A model generated the notes under the pieces. That model was given only the letters and a program-made list of their open reading frames with translations, did not search any database and was not told the origin of the DNA. From contig DUMB01000098.1 in assembly GCA_012840085.1 (NCBI GenBank), positions 62,001-126,000 of the forward strand: a stretch of DNA of 64,000 nt. The letters run 5' to 3'. Positions 22,102 to 55,520 of this stretch are shown here, one piece after another; position 1 is the stretch's first letter; each line of letters begins with the position of its first letter. The position numbers and the translations under genes were made by a program. The DNA comes from Clostridiaceae bacterium (GTDB lineage Bacteria > Bacillota > Clostridia > Acetivibrionales > DUMB01).

Positions 22102-22104
22102 GAA

Positions 22105-27785: not shown

Positions 27786-27981
27786 AACACTTAATCAAGT
27801 ACATTAATTGTACTAAATATTTACAGTATTAGATATTCCCGGCAGATTCAACTCTTTTGTTAAATCAAGCATGTGGAACATTACAGCTATGTCTGTTTTT
27901 GTTTCAAAAGACATTAGGTAATGTGTAGTATGTTATTGTCAATTTTTAAGGTAACAAAATTATCTAAATTAACAGAAAAAA

Positions 27982-28131
27982 TACATAATTAAAATGAAGC
28001 AGCTAAACTTCTGTAGGGCTAGCACATGAATTTCATAAAAAAGGGGGGAAAAGGAATAGAAGTGAATACAGTAGCCTGGGCATGTCCAAGGAACTGCTCT
28101 GTATAAACAGCGCTTCATTTTCAATTATGTA
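27982..28131 (+). repeat. Long-range inverted repeat enclosing the leader of the lpl-type operon
   Basis: TACATAATTAAAATGAAGC (27982-28000) versus GCTTCATTTTCAATTATGTA (28112-28131), complementary with one bulged base. Confidence 0.6.
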
Positions 28132-28183
28132 AATCATGAATCAATAAATTCATCAAACAAAAAAATAAGGGGAGGATTTTTGA

Positions 28184-29857
28184 ATGAAGAGGTATTTTAC
28201 AATCATTCTATTGTTGGTATTTATCCTGACTTCAGCTCTTACGGGCTGTGGGAAATCAAAGGAAGCTGAGAATAATATCCCAACCGACAGTGAAAAAACT
28301 ACTGATTCAACAACTCAGCAGGATAATGCAGCTGAGACAAAGGTTGATGAAAACATCACCTGGGAAACTGCAGATTTGTCCTGGAAAAAGGACACTTCAC
28401 CTGTTACATTGAGTGCATTTATTGATATGTCATGGTATGTGGTGGACACATGGGGCAAGGATGACATATCGCCTATAATCACAGAAAAAACAGGTGTTAC
28501 TCTTGATATCACCAAAGCTACTACCGGTGACAGCAGTCAGTTGGAGGTTATGATAGCTTCTAACCAATTACCTGACCTTGTATATGTTGAAAATTCAATA
28601 ATGTTTGACAGGCTTTCAAACAGCCAATACAGTCTGGCATTTGACGAATTGATGAAACAATACTGTCCAGAGTTTTTACAATTACTTGATCCGGTTGAAA
28701 TTGCAAACAATACTGAAGAAGATGGCCATTTCTATTCACTTACCAACTCCTATGCAAGTGATTCGGACTGGCAGGATCCTTCAGTGCTGCCGTCGGTAGG
28801 ATCGTCATGGCTGCATGTAAGGGAGGATATACTGAAGGAGCTTGGAAATCCGCCGCTTGAAACACTGGATGATTTCATGAATATATTAAAAATGGTTAAG
28901 GAAAAATATCCAAATATGACACCCTTTATACAGTTTGCTGACTGGGAACCTGCAATAGCAAAATTCATGGGACTTCCTGATATAGATTCGGCATATGTTG
29001 ATAATGGCAAAGTAAAACTTGGTATAACTCATCCTGGATACCTGGACTTCTATAAGTATATGAATAAGTTGTACAGAGAAGGATATTTGCCTGCAGAATC
29101 CTATACATACAGCATGGATCAGTTCAACCAGATTTATCAAAGCGGAAATGTCTTTTCTGTAGCCTTTAACTGCATGGTATCCGATAATGCAAATACAGTA
29201 TTCGACCAAACTAATAAACCATATCATTTTGTTCCGGTATCAGCGCCATTAAAATACAATGGAGAAATAAAATATAAACCTATAGACAGCAGCTTGGGTT
29301 GGGCTAAAGTTTTCATAAGCAAGAACTGTTCAAATCCCAAGAGAGCAATCAACTTCCTCGAGTTCCTCAGATCACCTGAAGGCGACAAGCTTACATGCTG
29401 GGGTGTTGAGGGAGTACACTACAATCTTGATAGCGATGGCTATCCAATTCGTCCGGCCGATTTTGCGTCACGTACTTATACTGAAACCGGTATAGTACAA
29501 TGGGGTTGGATGACGACAGCAAAGATTTCAGGAATAGAATTCGTTGGCAGACAAAAAGCATTAGAGCCTTATACATTAGGTTTCCAGACTGTACAGAAGA
29601 TAAAACCCTATGTTGACAGACAGCCCGCTCTTGCATTCGTTAATCCTAAACCGGACGATCCTGAAAGCGAAGCAATGGCAAAAATCCAGGAGTACCTCCG
29701 TGCTCAAAATACAAAGATTATTATGTCAAAAACTGAAGAAGAAGCTGTTGCTGAGTTCAACAAGACATTGGATGAAATCAATAAAATGGGATATCCTGAT
29801 GTAGAAAAACTTATGAATACGAAGTACAGCAAAGTCATAACCAGATACCAAAAATAA
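28184..29857 (+). CDS. ABC transporter extracellular solute-binding lipoprotein (LplA-like)
   Basis: Lipobox LTSALTGCGKSKEA; DLVYVENSIMFDRLSN; upstream of two permeases. Confidence 0.9.
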   Translation: MKRYFTIILLLVFILTSALTGCGKSKEAENNIPTDSEKTTDSTTQQDNAAETKVDENITWETADLSWKKDTSPVTLSAFIDMSWYVVDTWGKDDISPIITEKTGVTLDITKATTGDSSQLEVMIASNQLPDLVYVENSIMFDRLSNSQYSLAFDELMKQYCPEFLQLLDPVEIANNTEEDGHFYSLTNSYASDSDWQDPSVLPSVGSSWLHVREDILKELGNPPLETLDDFMNILKMVKEKYPNMTPFIQFADWEPAIAKFMGLPDIDSAYVDNGKVKLGITHPGYLDFYKYMNKLYREGYLPAESYTYSMDQFNQIYQSGNVFSVAFNCMVSDNANTVFDQTNKPYHFVPVSAPLKYNGEIKYKPIDSSLGWAKVFISKNCSNPKRAINFLEFLRSPEGDKLTCWGVEGVHYNLDSDGYPIRPADFASRTYTETGIVQWGWMTTAKISGIEFVGRQKALEPYTLGFQTVQKIKPYVDRQPALAFVNPKPDDPESEAMAKIQEYLRAQNTKIIMSKTEEEAVAEFNKTLDEINKMGYPDVEKLMNTKYSKVITRYQK

Positions 29858-29891
29858 CAGATAAACAGATTTATATTATAGAGTAGTCCGG

Positions 29892-29937
29892 GAACTTGAA
29901 GCTGTAAAAGCAATTTGCTTTCATCAGCTTCAAGTTC
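29892..29937 (+). terminator. Strong hairpin between the binding protein and permeases (partial terminator or mRNA stabiliser)
   Basis: GAACTTGAAGCTG...CAGCTTCAAGTTC perfect 13 bp, with inner AAAGCA/TGCTTT; no T-run. Confidence 0.6.
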
Positions 29938-30031
29938 AACCTGGCAATGGGTTATATGTTTTATATTATGGATTGCATGTTTTATATAAATATAGTCTGT
30001 GTAATAAAAGGAAGGTTAAGGGGGCAGCAAC

Positions 30032-31000
30032 TTGAAAAAACTTAACTATGGCGGTTTAACCTCCAGAAATAAAATATGGAGTACGTTTAAAGAACAGAAG
30101 TACTTACAAGCGTTTACGCTGGCAGGTATTGTGTTTTTATTGATATTTGCGTACATACCTATGGTTGGAATAATAATTGCCTTCAAAGATTATAAGCTAA
30201 CCAGCGGTTTTGCCGGTTTCTTTACCAGTAAGTGGGTTGGATTTAAATACTTCAAAGAGTTCTACAATGATGTATACTTTTGGCCCATTATCAGAAATAC
30301 TATGGTGCTGAGCTTGTTAAAGCTGGTTTTTACGTTTCCTGCACCGATAATATTTGCAATTATATTAAATGAAGTAAGAAATGACAAAGTAAAAAGAGTT
30401 GTTCAGACAGTCAGTTATCTGCCGCACTTTATTTCCTGGGCGGTTGTTGCAGGACTTTTATTCTCCTTTTTAAATCAGCAAACCGGACTTATTAATCAAT
30501 TGCTTGTATCATTGGAAATAGTAGATGAACCAATATCATTTCTGGCAGATCCGAAATATTTTTGGGCAATATGTGTATTAAGTGATGTCTGGAAGGAAAT
30601 GGGATGGTGGACTATAATATTTCTGGCAGCAATTGTAGGAATAGACCAGGAGATATATCAGGCCTCAATAGTTGACGGAGCGGGAAGGCTTCAAAGGATT
30701 TGGTATATCACTATTCCGTCAATAAAGGAAACTATTATAGTAGTATTGATTCTATCTTTAGGCAGTTTGCTGGGGGGCGGCCTTGGAGGATCAAACTTTG
30801 AACAGGCATATCTTCTTGGGAATACCGTCAATTACAATGTGTCCAACATTCTTCAGACATACACAATGACTGTGGGACTAAGTAAAGGCCGATATTCATA
30901 TGCAGCGGCCATGGGGCTTATACAGTCGGTAATATCGTTGATATTGGTTTATTCCAGCAATTATATCTCAAAGAAGATTTCAGGTTCAGGACTATTCTAA
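30032..31000 (+). CDS. ABC transporter permease (LplB-like)
   Basis: Binding-protein-dependent permease, EAA-loop-like region YQASIVDGAGRLQRIWYITIPSI. Confidence 0.9.
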   Translation: MKKLNYGGLTSRNKIWSTFKEQKYLQAFTLAGIVFLLIFAYIPMVGIIIAFKDYKLTSGFAGFFTSKWVGFKYFKEFYNDVYFWPIIRNTMVLSLLKLVFTFPAPIIFAIILNEVRNDKVKRVVQTVSYLPHFISWAVVAGLLFSFLNQQTGLINQLLVSLEIVDEPISFLADPKYFWAICVLSDVWKEMGWWTIIFLAAIVGIDQEIYQASIVDGAGRLQRIWYITIPSIKETIIVVLILSLGSLLGGGLGGSNFEQAYLLGNTVNYNVSNILQTYTMTVGLSKGRYSYAAAMGLIQSVISLILVYSSNYISKKISGSGLF

Positions 31001-31019
31001 GAGGATTGGAAGGGTTGTA

Positions 31020-31931
31020 ATGAGGAGAATGAAGAGAGTTAGGAGAATTAGTAGTAGGGAAGACATTTTTGTAGATACAATTGTTTATATTGTAATAACA
31101 TTTGTATTTCTTGTAACCTTGTATCCCTTTTATTATTCATTGGTAATATCATTCAACAACGGGATTGATGCCGCAAGAGGTGGAATTTTTCTCTGGCCGA
31201 GACAGTTTACATTTGACAACTACAAAGCAGTTTTTTCCAACGACCAGCTTTTGGGAGCATTTTTCATCTCTGTGTCAAGAACTGTTATAGGAACTATAGC
31301 ATCGCTGATTGCAACCAGCGTCTTTGCATACGGGCTGTCTCACAAGAAATTATTGTTCAGAAAATTCTATTTTTCTCTTTTAATTATTTCTATGTATTTT
31401 ACAGGAGGAATTATACCGTACTTTATCCTGCTTAACAATCTTAAGCTGACAAACTCCTATCTGGTTTATATTATACCTTCACTGATAACCGCATGGTATG
31501 CCATATTGTTCGTTAACTTCTTCCAGAGCATTCCCGAAGCTTTGAAAGAATCGGCTAAAATTGACGGAGCCAATGACCTTGTGATTTTTGGCAAAATAAT
31601 TGTTCCATTGTCAACGCCAATATTTGCAACAATAGCTTTATATATGGGCGTATATCACTGGAATGACTGGTATTCAACTGCGTTTTTTACACAAAACAAA
31701 AGGCTGCGTACATTGGCATACATTTTAATTGATTTGATAAACCGTTCAGACCTTACATCCATATTAAGAGGAGGGACAACACAAAAGGACGTAGCTATAG
31801 CAATGCAGACCTTCACACCTGAGACTATAAGAATGGCAACAATGATGGTTGTAGTTATACCAATAGTATGTGTGTATCCATTCTTGCAAAAGTACTTTGT
31901 AAAGGGAATAATGGTAGGCTCTATAAAATAG
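31020..31931 (+). CDS. ABC transporter permease (LplC/YtcP-like)
   Basis: ALKESAKIDGANDLVIFGKIIVPLSTPIFATIALYMGVYHWNDWY. Confidence 0.9.
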   Translation: MRRMKRVRRISSREDIFVDTIVYIVITFVFLVTLYPFYYSLVISFNNGIDAARGGIFLWPRQFTFDNYKAVFSNDQLLGAFFISVSRTVIGTIASLIATSVFAYGLSHKKLLFRKFYFSLLIISMYFTGGIIPYFILLNNLKLTNSYLVYIIPSLITAWYAILFVNFFQSIPEALKESAKIDGANDLVIFGKIIVPLSTPIFATIALYMGVYHWNDWYSTAFFTQNKRLRTLAYILIDLINRSDLTSILRGGTTQKDVAIAMQTFTPETIRMATMMVVVIPIVCVYPFLQKYFVKGIMVGSIK

Positions 31932-31981: not shown

Positions 31982-33205
31982 ATGAATTGGAAAGAAAGTT
32001 ATGTAAAGTCAATAGAGAAATGTCTGGAATGGATTAACAGCAAAATGCTTACATTTAATGATGGATACAACGGTATATATGAACGTATCAGGATAGATAT
32101 GAATAACCGTACCAACTGGTCCAGGCCGGATTGCAACGCTGAACTGGCAAGGGTGATTTATCTGTACAATAAAATAACCGGTGATGAAAAATATAATTAT
32201 TTATTTAACAATATAATTGAATGGCTGAAAAGGGTTCAGGACAACGACCCCCTATCAGTTTGGAAAGGTTCATTTCCTTTTTATCTTATTGACGGATATA
32301 TAAATGATCCTCCAATAGGTGATACCATTTATCAAAACGATAACGGCAAAATATTAATAGTTCTTACACAGCTCTATGATTATACAAATAACAGCGTATA
32401 CATAGACATGGCAAAAAAACTGGCTGACTATTGGATTGCCTTGCAACAGGAAGATGGTACTTTTGCCAGAATAGATTCAAAAACTTTCATATCAAAAGAC
32501 GGAAAGACCTTGTGCTATCCAAAAGGCCCCTGCTTTGTTTTATGGCTTGCTGCAGGACTGCTTTTTGCATACAAGGCCCTCGGTGATGACAGATATTTAG
32601 ATCCTGCAATAAAAGCTTTAAGGTATACCGAACAATATCAGCTTGAGAACGGGAGATTCAGGACATCATATGAACTTATGCAAGCTGAGGATTGGCGGCC
32701 TGTATCATCAGAAACATCAATTGCTCTCTTTGCTTACAGCGTAGCATACAAGATCACAGGAGATGAAAGATACCTCCATATACTGAAGAAAGCCGGAGAT
32801 TTTGTATTGTCACTTCAACATGGCTGTGGCGGGATTTTGAATTGTGATGATAGCTGCCTGGAAGCATCTCTGCAGAACAACAAAAACCTGTGCGACCTTG
32901 TATATACCCAGGGTTTTGCACTTATGGGACTGATAGAAGCGTTCAAAGCTACAGGGAATGAGCTTTATTATGAAAGTGCAAGAAAGCTTGCAGATTTTTT
33001 GGTGGAAATCCAATGCAATAACGAATCACCTTTATGGGATGGTGGCTGGAGAGGTTCCTTTAATGTAGAAACATGGAAATGGGACGGGAGAGCAAATCAG
33101 AATAACCCTATTGATGAGGGCGGAATGTATTCCGTTTATACCGGCTGGTGTGCAACTACGATAATGTATGGATTGTTAATGTTGCTCGAAATGGAAAAGC
33201 AATAG
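31982..33205 (+). CDS. Alpha/alpha six-hairpin (GH88/GH105/AGE-like) carbohydrate enzyme, family unassigned
   Basis: Repeated helical-pair pattern (ELARVIYLYNKITGDEKYNYLFNNIIEWLKRVQ; ALFAYSVAYKITGDERYLHILKKAGDFVLSLQ; ALMGLIEAFKATGNELYYESARKLADFLVEIQ). Confidence 0.6.
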   Translation: MNWKESYVKSIEKCLEWINSKMLTFNDGYNGIYERIRIDMNNRTNWSRPDCNAELARVIYLYNKITGDEKYNYLFNNIIEWLKRVQDNDPLSVWKGSFPFYLIDGYINDPPIGDTIYQNDNGKILIVLTQLYDYTNNSVYIDMAKKLADYWIALQQEDGTFARIDSKTFISKDGKTLCYPKGPCFVLWLAAGLLFAYKALGDDRYLDPAIKALRYTEQYQLENGRFRTSYELMQAEDWRPVSSETSIALFAYSVAYKITGDERYLHILKKAGDFVLSLQHGCGGILNCDDSCLEASLQNNKNLCDLVYTQGFALMGLIEAFKATGNELYYESARKLADFLVEIQCNNESPLWDGGWRGSFNVETWKWDGRANQNNPIDEGGMYSVYTGWCATTIMYGLLMLLEMEKQ

Positions 33206-33234
33206 ATCAGAAGGGTATGAGGAGGAGCATAATT

Positions 33235-35100
33235 ATGATATTATTACCCAGACCTAGAGAAATAAATGAAAAGAAAGGGCATTTTATACTGTCTCATGAG
33301 ACAAGGATCATTCTGGAGCCGAGGTGCAGCTACAATGATTTTGAAAGTGCGCGTTTGCTCCAGGAAGAAATAGAAAAGGCTGCAGCATTGCATGTCAATA
33401 TTATTAAAGCATTTGACAGATATGACAGGGATTGTATATTTCTTAAACTGGAACCGGAGAATTATGAAAAGGAATCCTATAAACTTGATATTGCTCCGGA
33501 TAATATAGAGATTACTGCAGGTGAAAGCAGCGGACTTTTTTACGGGATACAAACTCTGCGGCAGCTGATAAGGCTGAATGGAGCATGCATTCCCTGCATG
33601 ACCGTTAATGATGCACCTTATTTTGCCTATAGAGGCTACTTATTTGATATAACCAGGGGGAAAATGCCTACTCTGGATAATTTGAAAGAATTAGCAGACA
33701 GATTATCCTTCTATAAAATAAATCAATTACAGTTATATGTAGAATACACATTTGCGTATAAACATCACAGTGAGGTATGGATAAAGTCCGATCCGATTAC
33801 CGCGGAAGAAATATTGGAGCTTGATGAGTACTGCAAAAAAAGAAATGTTGAGCTCGTACCGTGTATGTCAACATTTTCTCATCTGTATGACTTGCTTGAC
33901 TCCAATTCATTTAAAGAACTTAGCGAAATGGATAGAAGTATAGGCAGGCCTTTTACCTGGTACAACAGGATGAGATACCACATACTCGACGCTTCCAACC
34001 CAAAAAGCATTGAATTGGTTAGGAACATGCTTGACGAATATATACCCCTGTTTTCTTCAAATAAGTTTAACATATGCTGTGATGAAACCTTTGATCTTGG
34101 AATGGGAAAAAGCAAAGCTCTGGCAGATAAAATAGGCGTAGGGAAACTATATGTCAACTTTGTCAATGAAATAATTAAACATGTTAAAAGTCACGGCAAA
34201 AAAGTAATGCTTTGGGGAGATATAATTCTTAAATACCCTGATTATATAAAATATCTTCCTACAGATGTGGAGTTCCTGAACTGGTATTATTATGACAAAG
34301 CTAAGGAAGAAGACATAAAGATATTCAGCGACCTTGGCTTTAAACAGTATGTATGCCCGAGCGTTTCAGGATTCAGCAGGCTTGTCAATCAATTGGATCT
34401 GAGCTTTCATAACATTGCCGAAATGACAAGTTACGGGAAAAAACACGGAGCTATTGGTGTGCTTAATACTGATTGGGGTGACTCGGGACATATCAATTTC
34501 TTTGCAAGTTCAATACCGGGAATGATATATGGGGCATCTCTGTCATGGTCTCCTGATGATAAAGAAAGCATTGATATTGTGGATAGCGGAATATCCATAC
34601 TGGAGTTCGGTGAGAAAAGCGGAAATCTGGTTTCATTGTTAAGGGAGCTTTGCCGGCAGGATAAAATTATCTGGAATAACATTGCATTTTGGAGAGATTA
34701 CAAGGTTTACGGCAAACCGATGCTTGAAGGTGTAATTAAAGAATTTACTGAAGTTAGTGAGGATGACCTGGTTAAATCCGCAAATAAAGCTATGGAAATT
34801 TCCAGGCAGATACTTGCTCTTTCAAATAATGTGCCTGAAAACCGAAAACTTGACATGCAAGAGTTTTATTTATCAGCAAGAGGTGTGGCACTTATGCAGG
34901 CCTTATCCCTTATCATAAAAAAATATGACTTCAAACAGGATATTAAAACTTTTGTGTATAGTCCATGGGAATTGGCCGAAATGCTTGAATACTGGCTGTA
35001 CGATTTTATAATCTTATGGCGCAAGCGCAATAAGGAAAGTGAATTATACAGGATAAGGGAAGCCTTTATGCAGATATGTGATATCCTGAGGAATTATTAA
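33235..35100 (+). CDS. GH20-like beta-N-acetylhexosaminidase
   Basis: GH20b-like N-terminus (YKLDIAPDNIEITAGESSGLFYGIQTLRQLI), catalytic region YRGYLFDITRGKMPTLDNLKELADRLSFYKINQLQLYVEYTF, DE pair FNICCDETFDLGMGKS, VMLWGDIILKYP. GGAGGAG before ATG 33235; the ORF track starts at 33148. Confidence 0.85.
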   Translation: MILLPRPREINEKKGHFILSHETRIILEPRCSYNDFESARLLQEEIEKAAALHVNIIKAFDRYDRDCIFLKLEPENYEKESYKLDIAPDNIEITAGESSGLFYGIQTLRQLIRLNGACIPCMTVNDAPYFAYRGYLFDITRGKMPTLDNLKELADRLSFYKINQLQLYVEYTFAYKHHSEVWIKSDPITAEEILELDEYCKKRNVELVPCMSTFSHLYDLLDSNSFKELSEMDRSIGRPFTWYNRMRYHILDASNPKSIELVRNMLDEYIPLFSSNKFNICCDETFDLGMGKSKALADKIGVGKLYVNFVNEIIKHVKSHGKKVMLWGDIILKYPDYIKYLPTDVEFLNWYYYDKAKEEDIKIFSDLGFKQYVCPSVSGFSRLVNQLDLSFHNIAEMTSYGKKHGAIGVLNTDWGDSGHINFFASSIPGMIYGASLSWSPDDKESIDIVDSGISILEFGEKSGNLVSLLRELCRQDKIIWNNIAFWRDYKVYGKPMLEGVIKEFTEVSEDDLVKSANKAMEISRQILALSNNVPENRKLDMQEFYLSARGVALMQALSLIIKKYDFKQDIKTFVYSPWELAEMLEYWLYDFIILWRKRNKESELYRIREAFMQICDILRNY

Positions 35101-36429: not shown

Positions 36430-36603
36430 TGAATTTAAATAAGCACTTTATGACCTAAGTTCAAACTTAAAATAATTGAAAATGAGAGGTGATGTACAAG
36501 TACAACGAATAATTTCTTATTCTTAAAGAATTATGAGACGGAAAAGATGCTGCAAAGGGTAGACATAAAATAATTCCAATGATAGAAATAGGAGGTAGTG
36601 AGT

Positions 36604-39600
36604 ATGTCTCGTAGAGGTCGAAAAGCTATAGCACTTATATTAATGCTTGCTATAACAATAAGCATGTCAGGAATACCATTAATTGCTTCTGCAGAGGGAA
36701 CTGAACTTAATATAGAAGGAATAAAGACGACTAGCTCTGTTCTACCCGGAACCAATGTTGCATTGGCAAGCAATGGTGGTAAAGCAACGGCATCTTCAGA
36801 ATACAGCAGAGATTTCCCTGCAAGCTCAGTAATAGACGGAGACAGAAAGGGGGTATATTGGGGACAAGGCGGCGGATGGGCTGACGCTACACCTGATGTA
36901 TATTCGGACTGGGTACAGATTGATTTTAACGATACTTATACTATTGATACAATCAATGTCTTTACACTGCAGGATAACGTAACTATAGTAAATCGCGACA
37001 TAATAGAGCCTACATTGACTTTGGATTTTTCATTAAATGGAATAACAGACTTTAACGTACAGTATTGGGATGGCTCATCATGGAAAGATGTTCCCGGAGG
37101 GCATGTAACGGATAATATAAACGTATGGAGGCAATTGCGGTTTGCTGCTGTTACTACAGACAAGATAAGAGTTGTAGTTAATGCTTCTCTGAATAAATAT
37201 AGCCGAATTGTAGAAATTGAAGCTTTGACCGAGTCAGAAATGGAAGAACCCGAACCCGGCACCAACGTAGCGTTGGTTAGCAATAAGGCAATAGCCACAG
37301 CTTCCTCACAGTATAGTGATAATTATCCTGCTGAAGCAGTAATCAACGGGGAGAGGAAAGGTATTAACTATAATAATGGAGGAGTGTGGATGGATGGAAC
37401 ACCTGGCACATACCCTGACTGGGTTCAGATTGAATTCAACTCCACCTATTCCATTAATGCAATTAATGTATATACGGTTCAGGACAACCTGAACAATCCC
37501 CAGGAACCATATCTGGAATTGGGCTTTACACAAAATGGAATAACTGAATTTGAGGTACAGTACTGGAATGGTTCATCCTGGGTAACCATACCGGGAGGAA
37601 GCGTTAGTGGAAATGACAAGGTATGGAGAAGATTCAAGTTTGAACCGGTAACAACCAATAAAATCAGAGTGCTAATAACCGGTGCAAAAGGGGGATATTG
37701 CAGGTTAACGGAGATAGAAGCAATAACACCGGTACCTGACAATATGTTGTCCCATACAAGCAAGTTATTCATTCAGAGAGGAATGCAATTTCAGACCAGC
37801 ATCACAACAGATTTAAGCGGAAGAGAATTCCCAACAGCAGAAGAATGGCTGAACTCAGGGTTTAATTCTGCAGCATATTACGAAGAACCTTTCTACAATG
37901 CAACTCTTTCCGCAGCAGTACCGGGGCTTCAGTGGAACATTTGCAGATATTACGGTACCACCGGGGACGAGGATGCACTTTCGGACTTACAAAGAGCTGA
38001 TGTTGAAAATTTGGTGTCAATATCCTTCTGTGATGAGGTGGCTTATTCAAAGAGCCATGAGCAGGCATGCAGGGATTTCTATAAAAAAGTACGTGCCAGA
38101 TATCCTAATGTTATGTTGCACAATAACCAGATCGGCGGCGGACAGTGGTCAATGAGTGAAATGAGAACCTATATCAGAAATGCAAAACCTGATTTTATTA
38201 CGTTTGACCACTACTACTTTTCTGAAAATGGTTCAGATATAAATATTACAACCAATATATGCAATTGTACCGCAATGTACAGGAAACTTTCCCTGGAAGG
38301 CTGGGATGGAACAGGAGAGCAGCCGATAGGTTTCGGACAATATTTAATAGGTTTTAAGACAGGCCCCAATCCCTGGGCTACAGGTTGGTATGAGGCAACA
38401 GAATCGCAATTGTACGTGGTTCCGTTTATCACTATGACCCTTGGCGGCAAGTGGATGAGCATGTTCAGATGGGAATTCTACAATGAGAATTATCATGACG
38501 GTACAAAGTTCCTGCTCTTTGACCCGGACAGAAATCCAACACGCCATTACTACTGGTACTCTGAGATAGGAAAACAGGTAAAGAATCTTGGCACGCATCT
38601 TATAAGACTCTACAGCAGCGATGTGCAATTTATACCTGGACAGCATAAGGAGGGAAGCAGTGTAGTATCAAACGCATTTCCTAATTACATGAGTCATTTT
38701 GCTTCCAAAGAGGATTATAACCTGGTAAATGTGACCGCAGTCAATCTGGGAACGGAGAATGGCGGTTTGCCCGGCGATGTGATTATTGGTTATTTTGATA
38801 TACTGCCCGGTGTTGACAGATCATTCTTTACTTGCACAAACCCAAAATACTTTATGGTGACCAACGGTCTGAATACCGGAAATGGTAAGAGACCTGAAGA
38901 ACAGCATGGTTCATGCGAAGAAACAAAACAAAAAATAACCCTTACCTTTGATTTCAGCACCGGCGGCGATCCTACAAGGCTTAAAAAAGTTAATCGCAAT
39001 ACAGGCGAAGTAGAATCTGTAAGTTTGACTAAAATTTCAGATTCAATTTATAAACTGGATTTAATCCTTGGAGGAGGACAGGGAGAACTTCTCTTCTTTG
39101 AACATGACGGTGATGCGCCCGAACCATACTTGCCACCGGATCCGCAGCCTATTACTCCATCGGAGCCGACACCTGTTGATCCGCCTATTGTTGCGGAATT
39201 GCCGACAAATGTTGCGTTAGCGAAACCTTACACAAAATCAATAGCTCCCCATCCGGCATATCCGGATGCAAATAACAAAAAATCAACGGACGGCATTTTG
39301 CAGACCGGAGACAGCTATTCAAACTTATATGGCTACTATATTGACGAAGGCAGCAGCATAACAGTTGATCTGGTTGTCGATCTGGGTAGTGTAAAGGAAA
39401 TAAATGAAGTAAGAACTGAATGGTGTAAATTGCAGCGCAACTACGGAGCAGACAGGGTAACAGTCTATACCGGCACTGACAACGTTAATTACGAACAGAA
39501 GGGAACATCACTAATACCTCCCGGTGGAGACTGGTATGACATTCAGTTTGAGCCAACCAATGCAAGATATGTAAAACTGCGCTTTGAAAAAACCAGGTAT

Positions 39601-40590
39601 GAATATAAGGATTGGTTGTTTATCGGAGAAGTTCAGGTATTTTCTCCAACAGAAGACCAGACACCGGAAACCGTACTTTTGTCACGGGGAAAGCCTTATT
39701 CCAAATCACAGGAACCTCATTCGGCATATCCGGATACCAATAATGCCGAGTCCACTGACGGACAGCTTGGCGCTCATTATTCTGATGGTAAAGCTTATGG
39801 ATATCATATTGGTCAAGGGAGCATAGATGTTGATATAACTCTTGATCTGGAGGGGATACATAATATCAGCAAGGTAAAAGTTTGGGAATATCCAGATAGT
39901 GCAAACTACAGACCTGATAGTATTATCATATATACCAGCACGGATAATGTGAATTTTGTAAGCCAGGGCACAGTCAGCACAGCGATAGAAGGTTGGTATA
40001 CTGTCGGGTTTGAACCGATTGATGCCCGGTATGTAAAGGTAAAGTTTGTGAAGAATGGTGCTGATTATAAAGATTGGTTGTTCATTGATGAAATTGAGGT
40101 GTATGGAGAAGAAGGAACAACAGAGCCAAATCCGCCAGATACTATGCTTCTGTCCTCGGGGAAAAGCTACATAAAGTCAGCAGAACCCCATTCAGCATAT
40201 CCGGATACCAATAATACTGAGTCTACTGACGGCCAACTCGGCGTTCATTATTCTGATGGCAAATCTTATGGATATTATGTTGGCCAGGAAAGTATAGAGG
40301 TTGATATAACTCTTGACTTAGAATCTGTATACAGTATCAGCAAGGTAAAGGTGTGGGAGTACCCGGACAGAGCCGGCTACAGACCGGATAGCATTACTGT
40401 ATATACAAGCACCGATAATGTAAATTTTGTAAGCCAGGGTACAGTCAGCTCAGCGGTGGAAGGTTGGTATATTGTCGGGTTTGAACCGGTTAATGCGCGA
40501 TATGTCAAGGTGAAATTCGAGAAGAGTGGCTCTTATTATAGCGATTGGCTGTTCATTGATGAAATTGAGGTATATGGAACCAGCGCATAA
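36604..40590 (+). CDS. Secreted giant protein A: signal peptide, 2 F5/8C, uncharacterised central (TIM-barrel-like?) module, 3 F5/8C domains
   Basis: ATG 36604 (MSRRGRKAIALILMLAITISMSGIPLIASAEG); F5/8C repeats (NVALASNGGKATASSEYSRDFPASSVIDGD..; LSRGKPYSKSQEPHSAYPDTNNAESTDG..); central module 37740-39100 shared with protein B. Confidence 0.85.
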   Translation: MSRRGRKAIALILMLAITISMSGIPLIASAEGTELNIEGIKTTSSVLPGTNVALASNGGKATASSEYSRDFPASSVIDGDRKGVYWGQGGGWADATPDVYSDWVQIDFNDTYTIDTINVFTLQDNVTIVNRDIIEPTLTLDFSLNGITDFNVQYWDGSSWKDVPGGHVTDNINVWRQLRFAAVTTDKIRVVVNASLNKYSRIVEIEALTESEMEEPEPGTNVALVSNKAIATASSQYSDNYPAEAVINGERKGINYNNGGVWMDGTPGTYPDWVQIEFNSTYSINAINVYTVQDNLNNPQEPYLELGFTQNGITEFEVQYWNGSSWVTIPGGSVSGNDKVWRRFKFEPVTTNKIRVLITGAKGGYCRLTEIEAITPVPDNMLSHTSKLFIQRGMQFQTSITTDLSGREFPTAEEWLNSGFNSAAYYEEPFYNATLSAAVPGLQWNICRYYGTTGDEDALSDLQRADVENLVSISFCDEVAYSKSHEQACRDFYKKVRARYPNVMLHNNQIGGGQWSMSEMRTYIRNAKPDFITFDHYYFSENGSDINITTNICNCTAMYRKLSLEGWDGTGEQPIGFGQYLIGFKTGPNPWATGWYEATESQLYVVPFITMTLGGKWMSMFRWEFYNENYHDGTKFLLFDPDRNPTRHYYWYSEIGKQVKNLGTHLIRLYSSDVQFIPGQHKEGSSVVSNAFPNYMSHFASKEDYNLVNVTAVNLGTENGGLPGDVIIGYFDILPGVDRSFFTCTNPKYFMVTNGLNTGNGKRPEEQHGSCEETKQKITLTFDFSTGGDPTRLKKVNRNTGEVESVSLTKISDSIYKLDLILGGGQGELLFFEHDGDAPEPYLPPDPQPITPSEPTPVDPPIVAELPTNVALAKPYTKSIAPHPAYPDANNKKSTDGILQTGDSYSNLYGYYIDEGSSITVDLVVDLGSVKEINEVRTEWCKLQRNYGADRVTVYTGTDNVNYEQKGTSLIPPGGDWYDIQFEPTNARYVKLRFEKTRYEYKDWLFIGEVQVFSPTEDQTPETVLLSRGKPYSKSQEPHSAYPDTNNAESTDGQLGAHYSDGKAYGYHIGQGSIDVDITLDLEGIHNISKVKVWEYPDSANYRPDSIIIYTSTDNVNFVSQGTVSTAIEGWYTVGFEPIDARYVKVKFVKNGADYKDWLFIDEIEVYGEEGTTEPNPPDTMLLSSGKSYIKSAEPHSAYPDTNNTESTDGQLGVHYSDGKSYGYYVGQESIEVDITLDLESVYSISKVKVWEYPDRAGYRPDSITVYTSTDNVNFVSQGTVSSAVEGWYIVGFEPVNARYVKVKFEKSGSYYSDWLFIDEIEVYGTSA

Positions 40591-40606
40591 CTGTTCATTT
40601 TGGGCT

Positions 40607-40670
40607 CATCTCCATCCAATACAATGGCAGTTGGATTGGACTACAGCGGCATCAGTATCGGATGGAGATG
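40607..40670. repeat. Inverted repeat between the two giant genes
   Basis: CATCTCCATCCAATAC (40607-40622) versus GTATCGGATGGAGATG (40655-40670); 15/16 complementary. Confidence 0.65.
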
Positions 40671-40788
40671 AAGCAGCCAGAGAAATGCCAACCGGTTGAA
40701 AACATACAAAATCGTTCAAAAAACCAGTGCACTAAAGATTTTAAATAAAATCTTAAAATACAACATGGCAGGAGGGAAAGCATTGAAT

Positions 40789-43700
40789 ATGAATTTTAAA
40801 GGCTACAAAGCAATAGCAGTCATACTGGTACTTGCCATCACAGCAAGTTTGACAGGAATGCAGTTGGACACTTTTGCAGACAGTACTATCCCAGCTTACA
40901 CAGCAACTTATGATGCCAACGGCGAAACTGGCAGTATACCTGCAGAAGCTGACAAGACTGAAGGTGAAATCATAATTGCAGATGATGCCAGTGGATTGAT
41001 ATCACCGGATGGTGAGAATTCCGAGGAGGGGAATGCAGAAACCGGCGAAAGCGGAACAGATTATGTGCCCGTGGATACGGTGACAACTCCTGCAGGCGGT
41101 CTGACTTCATATGAAACAACATCATATGAAACAATGGAAGACAAGTCTGCTGAATTTGTGCTTTTATCCCGGGGAAAAAGCTATACGAAATCCATAGAAC
41201 CCAATGCTTCATATCCGGACGCAGGCAATGCCGAGTCAACAAACGGAATAATATCCACTCACCATGACGATGGCGGATCATATGGATATCGCAGGGGAAC
41301 CAGCAGTTTCGATGTTGATATAACAATTGACCTGGAGAATGTATACAATATAAGTAAAGTTAAGGTACTTAGATACACCTACGGTTATTATCCAAATAAA
41401 GTAAAAGTATATACAAGTATTAACAATAAAACTTATACATTCCAGGCTGAATCAGATACTGCCGCGGGCAGTTGGTTTGAGCTTGATTTTGAGCCGGTAG
41501 ACGCCAGATATGTAAGAGTGAATATTGAAAAGACCAGCGGAGACGACTGGGTATTTATAGACGAGATTGAGGTATACGGTATAAATGAGATAGTTGAGCC
41601 AAAGTATGAACTTGTATCTGTTGCACCGGTACGCGACATAAAGGTTGACTATGGCACCGGCGAAGCTGATGCTTTAGCTGCATTGCCGCCAACCACTACA
41701 ATAAAGGATGAAGATAACCGGATACATACTGTTAAATTAAACTGGACAATAGATGGCTATAACGGTAATGTTGCCGGCAATTACACAGCCACAGGAACAT
41801 TTGAATTACCTGCCGGAGTTGTTCAGCCTGAACAACCTATCGACCTTAAGGTAACATCTACCGTTACAGTGAGGGAAGCATCAGACATTGTTGGTGAAGG
41901 AGTGAATGTAGCTCTTGCAAGCAATGGAGGTATTGCGAGTGCATCTTCACAGTATAGCAAAAACTACCCCGTGGAAGCTGTAAATGATGGTGACAGAGCG
42001 GGTATAGAATGGGAGAACGGCGGAGTCTGGGCGGATGCCACACCGGATGAATATCCCGATTGGGTGGAAATCAGCTTTGACAGTATTTATTCCATTGATA
42101 CGATAAATGTGTTTACGCTGCAAGATGATGTAGACAACATGTGTGAACCTACATTGTATATGGACTTTACCAAAAGCGGAATAACCATGTTTGATGTGCA
42201 GTACTGGGATATTAACAGCCAGTCATGGAAAATAGTTCCCGGAGGTAAAGTAACAGACAATATAAACGTATGGAGGCAATTCAGATTTGCACCGGTTAAT
42301 ACAAACAGGATAAGAGTATTGGTAAAAGGTGCATTGCAACAATTTAGCAGAATAGCTGATATAGAGGCTTTTACTGCTGTAAAGCAGGCAGCTGAACCGG
42401 AACCTGGTACAAACGTTGCACATTTGAGCAACAGGGCGGTAGCAACCGCGTCTTCGGAATATAGTGTCGATTATCCTGCCCAGTCAGTAATAGACGGCGA
42501 CAGGACAGGTTACTATTGGGGTTATGGCGGAGGCTGGATGGATGCTACAGCAGACGAATACCCTGATTGGGTACAGATTGAATTCGACTCCGACTATGAA
42601 ATTGAAGTAATAAATGTCTATACAGTACAGGATAACACATCTGTTGAACCTACACTTGATATGAGGTTTTCAACATATGGAATAAAGGATTTTGATGTAC
42701 AGTACTGGGATAAATCCAAATCTGAATGGATTACAGTACCCGGCGGAAGTGTGAGGGGTAATAATAAGGTATGGAACAGGTTTAAATTCGAGCCTGTAAC
42801 TACAAACAAGATCAGGGTAGTTGTAAACAATGCAGCAGTTAATTTCAGCAGAATAGTTGAAATTGAAGCATTGACGCCGATACCTGAAAACATGATGTCT
42901 GATACCACCAGGAAATTCATTCACCACGGATATATGTTCCAGACCAGTGTGGCAACAGATGAAAGCGGAAGACAGTTCCCAACCGCAGAAGAATGGATTA
43001 ATTCAGGCTTTACATCAGCAACTTATTATGAACCGCCATATTACAACAAGACTCTCTCAAACTCTGTAGAAGGACTCAAGTGGTCCCTTTGCTACCTGCC
43101 CTTTGGAACACCTGCGGCAAAGAGAAGTGATGGATTTTTAAAAGGAGACCAATTGGAAGATATTGATAACCTGGTTACATTTTCAATTGGGGACGAGATT
43201 TATTACTCGAAAAGATATGAACAAGAGAGCAGGGATATGGCCAAACTTATCCGTGAGCTCTATCCCAATGTTGTAATTCACAGTAATCAAATCGGCAACT
43301 GGTATTCCACCGGAGTTCCACAGTGGACTGAGCATCAGTTAAGAAGCTATATACGAAATGCGAAGCCGGACTTCATTGCCTTTGATGATTATTATTTCTG
43401 TGAGACAGGATCAGATATAAACATAAACGACCGCATTGTCAGCCAGACAGCCATGTATAGGGCACTGTCCCTTGAAGGATGGGATGGAAGCGGAACTCAA
43501 CCGATTGCTTTTGGCCAGTATATCATTGGCTTTAAGACAGGCAGCACTGTATATGCAACCGGATGGTATGAGCCAACTCAGTCGCAACTGTACGCAGTTC
43601 CATATATAACTATGGCTCTTGGCGGCAAGTGGCTAAGCATGTTCAGATGGGAGTTCTATAACGAGCATTATACTGATGGGACAAAGTTCCTCCTCTTTGA

Positions 43701-46700
43701 CAAGGACGGAAATCCTACAAAATTCTATCATTGGTATGCGCAACTTGGAAAAGAGGTTAAAAACCTGGGATCACATCTTGTGAGACTTTATAGCAGTGAT
43801 GCACGTTTCTTGCCGGGAAAACACATGGAAAACGGCAATGTTGTTGAGAATAAGATGCCCGATTACATCAGCAGGTTTGAAGCAAAAGCTGATTATAACA
43901 TAAGCAATATCACTGTAACTAATATGGGAACTCAGAATGACGGACTTCCAGGCGACGTTATTGTTGGATATTTCGATATACTTCCGGGAGTTGACAGGAG
44001 CTTCTTTACATCCTCAAGCCCGAAGTACTTTATGGTGGTAAACGGACTTCATACAGGAAACGGGTTAAGGCCGGAACAACAGAACGGCATGTGCGGGGAT
44101 ACACAGCAGAAAATTACAATAACCTTTGATTTCAGCACAGGTGGAGATCCTGCAAAATTGAGAAAAGTAAACCGTGAAACAGGAGCAATCGAGAATGTAG
44201 ATCTCTCTCATGTAGCAGGATCTGTTTATGAGTTGGAGCTTGTACTCGGCGGAGGCGAGGGAGAACTCTTCTACTTTGAATATGAAGGAGAATACCCTGA
44301 GCCTGTACAGATGCCTGAACCGGCTCCTGCCGCAGTGCCGGCACCTCTGGAACAAAGAATGGCACAGGAAAATCTCGCGCTTGGGAAGTCGTACACCAAG
44401 TCCAAAGAACCGGCTGCTTCATATCCGGATAAAAATAACTCTGAGTCCACGGACGGCATTATTGCAGGAGATTATCAGGACGGTAAATCTTATGGATATA
44501 ATATAGGCAGCGGAAGTATATCAGTCGATATAGTTATAGATCTGGAAACAGTACAGACCATAAACAATGTAAGAGTAAGCAAATGGCAGGGACAATATAA
44601 TTATGGAGCAGATGAAATAGAGGTATATACAAGTAGCGACAATGTAAACTTTACTTTCCAAGGTAAAGGAACATTGGCACCCAGCTTGTGGTATGAAGTA
44701 TCCTTCAATGATACTGATGCACGTTATGTTAAAGTGACATTCAAAAAGAGCTCCAGTGACTGGCTGTTTATTGATGAGATACAAGTATTCAAAAAGGATA
44801 ATGCCGGAGATGCTTATGACGAGACTACAATGATGCCTGAACCTGAACCGGAACCTGTACCCGGAGCAAATCTGGCATACGGAAAGACTTACAAAAAGTC
44901 TCATGAGCCAAACAGTGCATATCCTGATACAAATAAGTCAGAGTCCACAGACGGTGTTCTTGCCGGAGATTATCTGGATGGAAAATCATACGGATATAAC
45001 CTGGGCACTAACAATGTGGATATTACAGTGGATCTTGGTGCAGAAAGACTCATTGACAATGTAAAGGTGCATAAATGGGAGGGCGCATATCTGTACGAAA
45101 TTGATAAGGTTTCGGTATATACGAGTACCGATAATGTAAACTTCACATTTGCAGGCGCAGCTACAGTACCATCCGGACCTGCTGCCAAGTGGTACGATAT
45201 AAGCTTTAGCCCGACTAATGCCCGCTATGTCAAGGTGAAGTTTGAAAAGAGAGGCAATTGGATGTTCGTAGATGAAATCCTGGTATATAATACAGCTGGT
45301 TTGCCAACAGGAATAACAATTGCTCCCATGCCAAGTCCTCCTGAAAATACGGAAAACGTTGCCCTTGGGAAAACATATACGACGAATGAAAAGACAGGCG
45401 GTAATCACAGTGATTCGGGCTACGAATTAACCAATGGAATATACGGAGCTGATACACCTAATGACAGCCAGTGGCAGGGCATATTGAACACTTATTACAC
45501 AAGAATTTTTGATCTTGGATCAAAATACAATATAAGCTATATATCAGCAAACTTCCTTAAATATGTTGAAAGCGGTATAAATCTTCCTAAAGAAGTGATT
45601 TACTCTTATTCAACAGACGGAATTAACTTTGTCAGCCTTGGAAGGGCAAACCTGTATCCTGGTGCCGGTTCTCTTTCAAGTCCGGACAAGAGTTCGTATA
45701 AGTATATAATGCTGCTTGACAGCCCGGAAGTTGCCAGATATGTGAAGATTGATGTTATAACAGGAATAGAAGGGGCCTGGACATTTGAAGATGAAGTTGA
45801 AATCTGGGGAAGAGAATATGTGCCTCCTAAGTACACCGTAACTTATGACGCTAATGGTGGTACAGGCGACGTACCGACAGAGGCTGACAAGATCGAAGGC
45901 GAGACCTTCACTGTAGCTGATTCCGGCGGGTTAACACCGCCGGAAGGCAAGAAGTTCAAGGAGTGGAACACAGCAGCAGACGGAAGCGGAACAAGCTATG
46001 CACCAGGAGATACGGTTACAATGCCGGCAAGTGATCTGACATTGTATGCAATATGGGAAGTAGTACTTTCAAGCAACAACAACCTGAGTGGATTGACAGT
46101 TAGCGAAGGCACACTTACTCCTTACTTTGACGCAGACGTAGTATCATATACAGTAAGTGTAGGCAACAAAATATCAAGCATTGAGATAACTGCTACTGCT
46201 GCAGACAGCAAAGCAACAATAAAGATAGACGGAAATGATGTAACCAGCGGAGTTGCTAAATCTATAAGCTTAAATATAGGCGATAACATTATCGAAATAC
46301 TTGTAACAGCAGAGAACGGAAGTGAAAAGATCTATACATTAACAGTGAACAGGGCAGAGCCAAGTACAGGCGGAGGCATTATTCCTATACCGGTACCGGT
46401 CGAGGATCTGGATTCAGATACAGACACAGATACCGATACAGATTCAGCCTATAATGCAGTTGTTGACGGAGATACTTCAACTGATAAGATACCGGTTGAA
46501 GTTGACAAAGAGAAAGGCAGCGGTATTGTAAGCCTGGATAACGTAACAATTGAAACACTGTTTGCCAATAGTGACATTGTAAGTATAACCGTACCTTCAG
46601 TTGCCGGAATTAATGCATATACTCTGGAAGTACCTGCTTCTGCTTTGACAGGTAGCATCAAGACAAGAGAATTATCCCTCCGTACGGATGTGGGGAACAT

Positions 46701-47622
46701 AGCAATACCGGATAATATGTTGCAGGATGCCGAAGGAACAGAAGAAAAACGTGTTTCTATCACTATAGAAAAATATGATGTGTCTATGTTACCTGATGAT
46801 ATTAAAGAAGCTATTGGTGAACGCCCGGTAGTACAGCTTACTCTCAAGATAGACGGTGAGAGGATAGAATGGAGCAATCCTAATGCATCAATAACAGTAT
46901 CAATACCATATACACCAACAGCTGCCGAGCTTGAAGACCCTGAGCACATAGTGGTATGGTACATTGACGGAGCAGGCAATGTAATATCAATTCCTTCAGG
47001 CAGATATGATGCTGAAACGGGAATGGTTACGTTTACTACCACTCACTTCAGCAAGTATGCTGTAGCGTTTGTGAAGAAGACCTTTGATGACATTGGAAAC
47101 TATGCATGGGCTAAGAAAGAAATCGAAGTAATGGCTTCCAAGGGAATAATCAATGGTACTTCTGCCACAACCTTCAATCCTTCGGCAGACATTACAAGAG
47201 CAGACTTTATAGTAATGCTGGTTAGGGCATTAGGGCTTGATGCCGAGGTAGATGACAACTTCTCAGATGTAAATCCGAATGCATACTATGCCAAGCAGGT
47301 GGGAATAGCCAGGAAGCTTGGAATAACCAACGGTGTTGGAAACAACGAGTTCAGGCCTAATGACAAGATAGTAAGGCAGGATATGATGGCACTGATAGAC
47401 CGTGCATTGAAGGTAGCAGGAAGAAGCCTTGCACAAGGAATAGATGCTGATCTTGAAGGATTTGCCGATAAGGATATGATAGCTTCATTCGCAAAGGACA
47501 GCGTAGCAGCACTTGTAAAGAGCGGAATCGTAAAGGGTGACGGAACAAACATCAATCCTCTTGGCAATACAACAAGAGCTGAAACAGCAGTTGTAATCTA
47601 TAGAATCTACAATATGCTCTAA
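40789..47622 (+). CDS. Secreted giant protein B: signal peptide, degenerate InlB-B, F5/8C, Ig-like, 2 F5/8C, central module, F5/8C repeats, InlB-B, cadherin-like, 3 SLH
   Basis: SLH repeats (TFDDIGNYAWAKKEIEVMASKGIINGTSATTFNPSADITRADFIVMLVRALGL..; FSDVNPNAYYAKQVGIARKLGITNGVGNNEFRPNDKIVRQDMMALIDRAL..; FADKDMIASFAKDSVAALVKSGIVKGDGTNINPLGNTTRAETAVVIYRI); InlB repeat YTVTYDANGGTGDVPTEADKIEGETF. TTG 40783 is an alternative start; the ORF track starts at 40696. Confidence 0.88.
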   Translation: MNFKGYKAIAVILVLAITASLTGMQLDTFADSTIPAYTATYDANGETGSIPAEADKTEGEIIIADDASGLISPDGENSEEGNAETGESGTDYVPVDTVTTPAGGLTSYETTSYETMEDKSAEFVLLSRGKSYTKSIEPNASYPDAGNAESTNGIISTHHDDGGSYGYRRGTSSFDVDITIDLENVYNISKVKVLRYTYGYYPNKVKVYTSINNKTYTFQAESDTAAGSWFELDFEPVDARYVRVNIEKTSGDDWVFIDEIEVYGINEIVEPKYELVSVAPVRDIKVDYGTGEADALAALPPTTTIKDEDNRIHTVKLNWTIDGYNGNVAGNYTATGTFELPAGVVQPEQPIDLKVTSTVTVREASDIVGEGVNVALASNGGIASASSQYSKNYPVEAVNDGDRAGIEWENGGVWADATPDEYPDWVEISFDSIYSIDTINVFTLQDDVDNMCEPTLYMDFTKSGITMFDVQYWDINSQSWKIVPGGKVTDNINVWRQFRFAPVNTNRIRVLVKGALQQFSRIADIEAFTAVKQAAEPEPGTNVAHLSNRAVATASSEYSVDYPAQSVIDGDRTGYYWGYGGGWMDATADEYPDWVQIEFDSDYEIEVINVYTVQDNTSVEPTLDMRFSTYGIKDFDVQYWDKSKSEWITVPGGSVRGNNKVWNRFKFEPVTTNKIRVVVNNAAVNFSRIVEIEALTPIPENMMSDTTRKFIHHGYMFQTSVATDESGRQFPTAEEWINSGFTSATYYEPPYYNKTLSNSVEGLKWSLCYLPFGTPAAKRSDGFLKGDQLEDIDNLVTFSIGDEIYYSKRYEQESRDMAKLIRELYPNVVIHSNQIGNWYSTGVPQWTEHQLRSYIRNAKPDFIAFDDYYFCETGSDININDRIVSQTAMYRALSLEGWDGSGTQPIAFGQYIIGFKTGSTVYATGWYEPTQSQLYAVPYITMALGGKWLSMFRWEFYNEHYTDGTKFLLFDKDGNPTKFYHWYAQLGKEVKNLGSHLVRLYSSDARFLPGKHMENGNVVENKMPDYISRFEAKADYNISNITVTNMGTQNDGLPGDVIVGYFDILPGVDRSFFTSSSPKYFMVVNGLHTGNGLRPEQQNGMCGDTQQKITITFDFSTGGDPAKLRKVNRETGAIENVDLSHVAGSVYELELVLGGGEGELFYFEYEGEYPEPVQMPEPAPAAVPAPLEQRMAQENLALGKSYTKSKEPAASYPDKNNSESTDGIIAGDYQDGKSYGYNIGSGSISVDIVIDLETVQTINNVRVSKWQGQYNYGADEIEVYTSSDNVNFTFQGKGTLAPSLWYEVSFNDTDARYVKVTFKKSSSDWLFIDEIQVFKKDNAGDAYDETTMMPEPEPEPVPGANLAYGKTYKKSHEPNSAYPDTNKSESTDGVLAGDYLDGKSYGYNLGTNNVDITVDLGAERLIDNVKVHKWEGAYLYEIDKVSVYTSTDNVNFTFAGAATVPSGPAAKWYDISFSPTNARYVKVKFEKRGNWMFVDEILVYNTAGLPTGITIAPMPSPPENTENVALGKTYTTNEKTGGNHSDSGYELTNGIYGADTPNDSQWQGILNTYYTRIFDLGSKYNISYISANFLKYVESGINLPKEVIYSYSTDGINFVSLGRANLYPGAGSLSSPDKSSYKYIMLLDSPEVARYVKIDVITGIEGAWTFEDEVEIWGREYVPPKYTVTYDANGGTGDVPTEADKIEGETFTVADSGGLTPPEGKKFKEWNTAADGSGTSYAPGDTVTMPASDLTLYAIWEVVLSSNNNLSGLTVSEGTLTPYFDADVVSYTVSVGNKISSIEITATAADSKATIKIDGNDVTSGVAKSISLNIGDNIIEILVTAENGSEKIYTLTVNRAEPSTGGGIIPIPVPVEDLDSDTDTDTDTDSAYNAVVDGDTSTDKIPVEVDKEKGSGIVSLDNVTIETLFANSDIVSITVPSVAGINAYTLEVPASALTGSIKTRELSLRTDVGNIAIPDNMLQDAEGTEEKRVSITIEKYDVSMLPDDIKEAIGERPVVQLTLKIDGERIEWSNPNASITVSIPYTPTAAELEDPEHIVVWYIDGAGNVISIPSGRYDAETGMVTFTTTHFSKYAVAFVKKTFDDIGNYAWAKKEIEVMASKGIINGTSATTFNPSADITRADFIVMLVRALGLDAEVDDNFSDVNPNAYYAKQVGIARKLGITNGVGNNEFRPNDKIVRQDMMALIDRALKVAGRSLAQGIDADLEGFADKDMIASFAKDSVAALVKSGIVKGDGTNINPLGNTTRAETAVVIYRIYNML

Positions 47623-47892: not shown

Positions 47893-49077
47893 ATGAGACA
47901 GGAAAGAATTGAGGAGTTAAAGCAAATATATAAAGACATGCTTTTGGATAATGTAATTCCCTTCTGGATGAAATATTCTCCTGATTGGGAAAATGGCGGC
48001 TATTATCATTATCTTGACAGGGACGGATCTGTTTTAAGTACAGATAAGTCTGTATGGATACAGGGCAGAGGAACCTGGATATTCAGCAGGTTGTACAATG
48101 TACTTGAAAAACGAAGCGAATGGCTTGACATGGCTAAACTTGGATATGATTTTCTAATAAAACATTGTTTTGACACTGATGAAAGAATGTTTTTTAAAGT
48201 AACAAATGACGGCAGGCCATTGAGAAAAAGAAGATATTGGTTTTCCGAAACTTTCGCTGCAATAGGCTGTGCAGAATATGCGAAAGCTTCCGGTGATTCT
48301 AATGCCTTGGAAAAGGCAGACAGGATTTTCGATTTGATAGTAAAACTTTATAAAAATCCTGGCTTACGGGAACCAAAGGTTTACCCTCAAACCAGGCAAA
48401 CAAAATCACATTCAGAAACAATGATTCTGATTGCTACAGCTCAAGTTATGCGCGAAGTAAAAAATGACGATTCCTATAATGAAATTATTGATGAATGCAT
48501 AAGTGAGCTGTTTAATAGTTTTGTAAAATATGACGAAAAAGCATTACTGGAGAATGTCGGACCGAATGGAGAAATCCTGGACACCTTGCCTGAAGGAAGA
48601 TGCATTAATCCCGGCCATGCCATTGAGACTTCCTGGTTCTTACTGAGTGAAGGTTTATACAGAAATAATCACGATTTAATAAAGAAAGCCCTGGATATTC
48701 TCGAATGGTCGCTTGAAAGAGGCTGGGACAATGAATTTGGCGGATTGCTGTATTTTACAGATTTACATGGCAAGCCCCCTGAACAGATGGAATGGGATAT
48801 GAAACTATGGTGGCCTCATAATGAAGCCTTATATGCATTGCTTTTGGCTCACCATATTACCGGCAATGAAAAATATGAGTTGTGGTATGAAAAGGTACAT
48901 AAATGGACTTTCGAACATTTCGTCGATAAAGAATATGGAGAATGGTTCGGGTATTTGCATAGGGACGGAACCGTTTCTCTTCCAATAAAAGGCAATGTAT
49001 GGAAGGGTCCATTCCATATACCAAGATTTTTACTGTATTCCTTAAAACTCCTGGAGAGAATGGAGGGTACAAAATAA
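47893..49077 (+). CDS. AGE family epimerase/isomerase (N-acylglucosamine 2-epimerase-like)
   Basis: WIQGRGTWIFSRLYN..FFKVTNDGRPLRKRRYWFSETFAAIGCAEYAKASGD..NPGHAIETSWFLL..WWPHNEALYALLLAHHITG. Confidence 0.9.
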   Translation: MRQERIEELKQIYKDMLLDNVIPFWMKYSPDWENGGYYHYLDRDGSVLSTDKSVWIQGRGTWIFSRLYNVLEKRSEWLDMAKLGYDFLIKHCFDTDERMFFKVTNDGRPLRKRRYWFSETFAAIGCAEYAKASGDSNALEKADRIFDLIVKLYKNPGLREPKVYPQTRQTKSHSETMILIATAQVMREVKNDDSYNEIIDECISELFNSFVKYDEKALLENVGPNGEILDTLPEGRCINPGHAIETSWFLLSEGLYRNNHDLIKKALDILEWSLERGWDNEFGGLLYFTDLHGKPPEQMEWDMKLWWPHNEALYALLLAHHITGNEKYELWYEKVHKWTFEHFVDKEYGEWFGYLHRDGTVSLPIKGNVWKGPFHIPRFLLYSLKLLERMEGTK

Positions 49078-54182: not shown

Positions 54183-54198
54183 TGAGGGGGATTAACAG

Positions 54199-55263: not shown

Positions 55264-55326
55264 AAAGCACGAAAAATGAAAATTTTACTTTAAAAATTTT
55301 TTCAAGAAAATATTACGTTAAATATG

Positions 55327-55519: not shown

Positions 55520-55520
55520 A

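Follow-up and report, generated by a model that had tools for sequence, protein, structure and literature searches.

Two predicted barrel modules flanked by F5/8 type C domains in a clostridial locus as candidates for a GH42-related glycoside hydrolase branch

Organisation of the locus

The window analysed here, a stretch of 64,000 nucleotides on contig DUMB01000098.1 of a Clostridiaceae bacterium, contains the genes of two large secreted multidomain proteins, referred to as A and B, each of which carries one copy of an orphan module; these are the only two copies in the source genome. An overview of the features is given in Table 1. In protein A, the F5/8 type C (F5/8C) domains on either side of the module are recognised by PF00754 (E 2.9e-47, six stretches) and PF22633 (five stretches), which agrees with the original prediction of a module of about 450 residues between galactose-binding-like domains. 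The predicted coordinates, 37740-39105, marked the right region but were a few bases off and out of frame, as the stretch MLSHTSKLF...LLFFEHDG corresponds to residues 383-838 of protein A and to 37744-39111 of the window. The motifs quoted for module A were all located in the sequence, namely VSISFCDE starting at 38014, FITFDHYYF at 38194, GWDGTGE at 38299 and MFRWEFYNE at 38461. A beta-sandwich-like tail had been expected after the barrel motifs, and a beta-rich tail is supported by the AlphaFold2 model of module A, in which, the model being of low confidence overall, the tail is the best-predicted part, with blocks up to pLDDT 88 that consist entirely of strands.

Protein B comprises F5/8C domains, module B, further F5/8C domains, a List_Bact repeat, a cadherin-like domain and, at its end, three SLH domains as an S-layer anchor. 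The predicted recurrence of the module in protein B with its acidic residues kept was borne out, since D97, E98 and D155 are retained, together with Y157 and FRWEFYNE (module A numbering is used throughout). An inverted repeat, GGCTCATCTCCATCC ... GGATGGAGATGAAGC, was noticed by eye between the genes for A and B (40603-40672), and a degenerate 37-bp tandem repeat with 2.5 copies and 72% matches lies at 36335-36425, between a URO-D-family gene and the gene for protein A.

Table 1. Features of the locus, with positions in the window.
Feature	Position	Strand	Basis or remark
Two solute-binding proteins and two ABC permeases, sugar-uptake type	26079..31931	+	Domain scan
GH20-type beta-N-acetylhexosaminidase homologue, CDET motif	33148..35100	+	PF00728 E 3.9e-15, PF02838 E 1.5e-21
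Protein A, ORF of 1330 aa, GTG start	36598..40590	+	ORF reading
Domain order of protein A: signal-peptide-like N-terminus, two F5/8C, module A, three F5/8C-type	36598..40590	+	PF00754, PF22633
Two N-terminal F5/8C domains of protein A, approximate borders	36748..37740	+	PF00754, best stretch residues 233-372
Module A, orphan barrel (predicted) and beta-rich tail, 456 aa, residues 383-838	37744..39111	+	Homologous to core family
D97-E98, strand 4; E98 predicted acid/base, D97 predicted 2-acetamido (C2 substituent) contact	38032..38037	+	Invariant, 25/25
D155-x-Y157, strand 6, equivalent to GH42 D285/Y287	38206..38214	+	Invariant
Strand 7, PIGFGQYLIGF, site at which the GH42 nucleophile is missing	38323..38355	+	No acidic residue in A or B
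Strand 8, FRWEFYNENYHDG; F241, W243, and E248 in ExYxxG as in GH42	38464..38502	+	Alignment with GH42
C-terminal beta-rich tail of module A, approximate start	38611..39111	+	Low-confidence model
Three C-terminal F5/8C-type (NedA-like) domains of protein A, approximate	39208..40587	+	PF00754/PF22633 scan
Protein B, ORF of 2308 aa, likely true start ATG at 40789	40696..47622	+	ORF and domain scan
Module B, 466 aa	42892..44289	+	63% identical to module A over full length
D-E pair of module B	43192..43197	+	Alignment with module A
N-acylglucosamine 2-epimerase homologue, directly downstream of B	47893..49077	+	PF07221 E 5e-57; NF052547 E 3.1e-124 over full length, below strict cutoff
Two GH38-type alpha-mannosidases flanking a GntR/LacI regulator	51501..58643	+	Domain scan

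The GH20 homologue lies one gene upstream of protein A, beyond the URO-D-family gene, and a protein with partial GH88/C5-epimerase/GH127-like similarity is also encoded upstream of A; the downstream genes include GntR/LacI regulators. Together, the neighbours fit the breakdown of a glycan containing mannose and N-acetylglucosamine, such as an N-glycan, without proving it; since they also include a LacZ-type GH2 enzyme and the GH38 enzymes, the surroundings do not point to an amino sugar in particular. The LacZ-type GH2 beta-galactosidase (10920-15344) is followed by an NPCBM domain and a type I dockerin, which hints at a cellulosome-like assembly in this organism. At least three sensors of the His_kinase type and two AraC-type response regulators (5898-9356 and 20350-25927) are a sign of several sugar-sensing systems. 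In addition, the glycan locus contains two proteins of the URO-D/MtaA-CmuA family (35248-36306 and 58676-59728), both of which score far below the methyltransferase cutoffs.

Database searches and relatives of the modules

Neither module A nor module B gave a match in Pfam at E<=10 or in NCBIfam at E<=1, in line with the earlier statement that the module is not assignable to a GH family; the term "unnamed" is used here for sequences absent from Pfam and NCBIfam. Searches of PHROGs, and of the PDB sequences with a single module, returned nothing useful, and a PDB match to an Ahr homologue (E 0.46) was dismissed as chance. Pattern scans of genome contigs and viral contigs revealed no relatives of the modules, nor were any found in plasmids or phages.

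A profile built from the two copies and searched against about 390 genomes of the class identified three true remote relatives (L005, L006 and L007), while a match to L003/L004 in the first A/B profile search was false, these being radical-SAM methylthiotransferase-like by sequence. The alignment of A and B with the three relatives shares D97, E98, N128, D155, Y157, F159, F241 and W243. When this five-sequence alignment was used for a second search, matches were obtained in 49 of the 391 genomes of the class, about 40 of them strong, and the latter are referred to as the "core" family. The same search returned a more distant "mid" set, mostly proteins of 400-470 aa, as well as proteins of 600-716 aa at E ~1e-7, of which the one scanned (L032) is a GH42 beta-galactosidase (PF02449 E 3.6e-111). 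At E<=0.001, roughly one sampled genome of the class in eight thus contains a relative of the modules, the remote GH42 matches being counted in. A/B-like modules themselves were looked for in the phylum (399 genomes) and the order (58 genomes) and are confined to the source genome.

With a profile of 23 core members from which A and B were left out, module B scored 35.8 bits and module A 24.2 bits, whereas none of 202 decoys, made by shuffling or reversal, exceeded 1.6 bits, so that the link between A/B and the core family is more than chance. Judged by their profiles, the modules belong to a clostridial superfamily with a predicted barrel and a C-terminal beta-rich tail, often accompanied by F5/8C domains and remotely homologous to GH42. 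The core family, also called "DEP" (e.g., L006, L007, L037 and L043), has in common with A and B the barrel and tail, the invariant Asp-Glu pair, D155, Y157, F159 and often F5/8C domains, but its sequence identity to module A is only 14-20%. Extra loops, FRWE in strand 8 and GQY in strand 7, where the core family has YxQ, are carried by A and B, which form a separate long branch of 2.3-2.6 changes per site in the trees. A tree including GH42 joins A/B to GH42, which calls for a long-branch warning, whereas in a tree without GH42 their branch, just as long, attaches close to the core family; their exact place therefore depends on the taxon set.

Relation to GH42

The relation to GH42 was established by profile-profile comparison with hhalign, in which A/B matched the core family with 96.8% (E 2.9e-10, 317 columns), the core family matched GH42 with 97.6% (E 3e-12) and A/B matched GH42 directly with 91.1% (E 1e-6) over the barrel. 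Among PDB structures, the profile of the whole family also picks out GH42 beta-galactosidases (4uoq, E 5.4e-6). This relation backs the earlier description of the module as a TIM-barrel-type glycosidase candidate, and a barrel geometry is probable on the grounds of homology to GH42. The AlphaFold2 models of the two modules, computed from two-sequence alignments, reached pLDDT values of 37.8 and 40.0 and are both of low confidence, so the strand positions and the mechanism given below are deduced from the alignments.

Membership in GH42 itself was rejected on active-site tests, as Asp-Glu stands in place of Asn-Glu and the strand-7 nucleophile is absent. The modules and GH42 (PF02449) have in common the barrel homology, the acid/base Glu of strand 4, the DxY of strand 6, and the Phe and ExYxxG of strand 8. 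They differ, beyond the two active-site changes, in that the trimerisation domain of GH42 (PF08532) was not found in protein A or B, in the flanking F5/8C domains, and in the missing Pfam match above threshold, PF02449 giving none for A or B at E<=10.

The active site

Across the 25 aligned family members, D97, E98 and D155 are the only invariant acidic residues, which confirms the Asp-Glu pair of the CDE motif and the Asp of FDHYYF as the conserved acids they had been taken for. Asp-Glu occurs on strand 4 in every one of these members, while the GH42 relatives carry NE where it was found. For GH42 the role of the surrounding residues is known from BiBga42A, in which Asp285 binds both O2, together with Asn159, and the alpha-anomeric O1, together with Tyr287, while O4 is bound by Glu366 and Phe356 provides stacking (PMC10688820). 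By motif and spacing, the equivalents of subsite -1 are kept in the modules as D155, Y157, F241 and E248. As far as the alignments tell, subsite -1 of the modules resembles that of GH42 except that Asp replaces the Asn and that the nucleophile is lost.

Of the Glu pair that clan GH-A carries on strands 4 and 7, the strand-4 residue is present and the strand-7 residue is absent. GH42 has ME(Q/T/N) at the strand-7 site, with the Glu as nucleophile; the core family has TAxYxQS there and no acid in nearly all of its members (in L051, a Glu replaces the Gln). The register of strand 7 shifts by a few residues between methods, and every register in A and B is without a carboxylate. Two motifs of the original prediction did not survive this comparison: GWDGTGEQPIGFGQYLIGF, listed among the barrel motifs, is not an acidic active-site motif and covers the strand-7 region, in which the GH42 nucleophile Glu is missing here, and the "WEF" glutamate (E244), regarded as catalytic, is shared by A and B alone, without conservation among the relatives. 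What holds of the proposed new or poorly described GH family is that the modules represent a branch at family level within a superfamily related to GH42, the catalytic site being putatively rewired.

Proposed mechanism and alternatives

Substrate-assisted hexosaminidases, e.g., those of GH123 and GH20, are characterised by an Asp-Glu pair and the lack of an enzyme nucleophile. In GH123 and related beta-N-acetylgalactosaminidases, the consecutive Asp and Glu act as acetamido stabiliser and acid/base, respectively, in substrate-assisted catalysis (PMC11087588). The modules resemble these enzymes in their predicted barrel, the consecutive Asp-Glu pair that ends strand 4 and the lack of a separate nucleophile, and by sequence Y157, Y200 and W243 are candidates for the active-site Tyr and Trp residues of GH123. 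However, the N-terminal sandwich and the DUF4091 features of GH123 were not seen, the domain order differs, and no profile similarity to GH123 (PF13320) was detectable (hhalign 0.3-4.6%), on which basis GH123 membership was rejected. PF00728 (GH20) gave no match for module A or B.

A second point of comparison is the exo-beta-D-glucosaminidase GlmA, a GH35 enzyme related to GH42, which shares with the modules a GH42-like barrel and Asp-Glu in place of Asn-Glu on strand 4 but, unlike the module family, retains its strand-7 nucleophile, Glu347 (PMC6566704). The change from Asn to Asp before the acid/base switches recognition in GlmA to a 2-amino sugar, and this Asp is described as clashing with an acetamido group (PMC6566704), so that Asp-Glu alone need not mean GlcNAc. 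In the module family, this Asp-Glu step is combined with the loss of the nucleophile, a combination that points to substrate-assisted catalysis on N-acetylhexosamines. We therefore lean, with somewhat less than even confidence, towards the modules being the catalytic domain of a new family-level GH branch, descended from GH42 or from a common ancestor, with a mechanism that is most likely substrate-assisted.

In such a mechanism, C1 of a beta-linked GlcNAc or GalNAc bound in subsite -1 would be attacked by the sugar's own 2-acetamido group, D97 would orient and stabilise the oxazolinium-like intermediate, and E98 would protonate the leaving group and then activate water, giving a product that retains the anomeric configuration. 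The F5/8C domains might keep the enzyme bound to glycans that contain galactose or hexosamine, with protein B kept on the S-layer by its SLH domains and protein A released, and the products could be imported and then processed by the GH20, epimerase and GH38 enzymes.

The invariance of D155, the sole invariant acidic residue besides D97 and E98, could also be read as that of an inverting glycosidase, with E98 as general acid and D155 on strand 6 as general base activating a water on the alpha-face, for which the acetamido group is not needed; the inverting water would be placed at the alpha-anomeric O1, which in GH42 is contacted by the counterpart of D155, D285, and by Y287 (PMC10688820). This reading, which we consider unlikely, leaves the invariant change from Asn to Asp at D97 without a special role. 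We also know of no GH42-like family described as inverting, which counts against it further. The loss of the nucleophile, the position of the module among many binding domains and SLH domains, and the long branch of A/B would likewise suit a GH42-like barrel that has become a non-catalytic glycan-binding or scaffold module, a lectin within a large F5/8C protein that is partly anchored to the S-layer. That is similarly improbable to our minds, as the acid/base is retained and D97, E98, D155 and Y157 stay unchanged even between highly divergent members, a constraint for which a lectin has no obvious use. A conventional retaining glycosidase with its nucleophile moved to D155, or to E217, E244 or E248, the last three common to A and B, is more doubtful still, given that E217 and E244 are not conserved in the relatives and E248 only partly, matching the sugar-binding Glu of GH42 and not its nucleophile, even if, as the case of GlmA teaches, the sequence can mislead about which residues are catalytic in this superfamily (PMC6566704).

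Returning to substrate assistance, a wider and more tentative proposal is that the superfamily of GH42 (clan GH-A) ancestry has dropped double displacement, with Asn-Glu turned into Asp-Glu and the strand-7 nucleophile lost, and might cleave beta-N-acetylhexosaminides by a substrate-assisted route that arose independently of GH20 and GH123, A and B being a separate new family within it that is so far confined to one genome. If so, a glycosidase lineage would have gone over from a nucleophile of the enzyme to one of the substrate, a change of chemical mechanism inside a single fold whose steps could be traced in the many extant sequences, and unnamed enzymes for amino-sugar glycans missed by current family libraries would be added.

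Gene context of the relatives

In other genomes, the core relatives mostly have housekeeping genes as neighbours, which offer no clue to a substrate. Two core members (L142 and L145), from genomes of the same genus, lie directly upstream of mutL, so the core family is not always found in sugar loci. Among the "mid" relatives, for which one protein each from L022 and L065 was scanned and gave no Pfam assignment above cutoff, tandem runs of at least two adjacent genes occur in L022, L059, L065, L068 and L070, encoding putative DE-containing barrels of about 390-640 aa.
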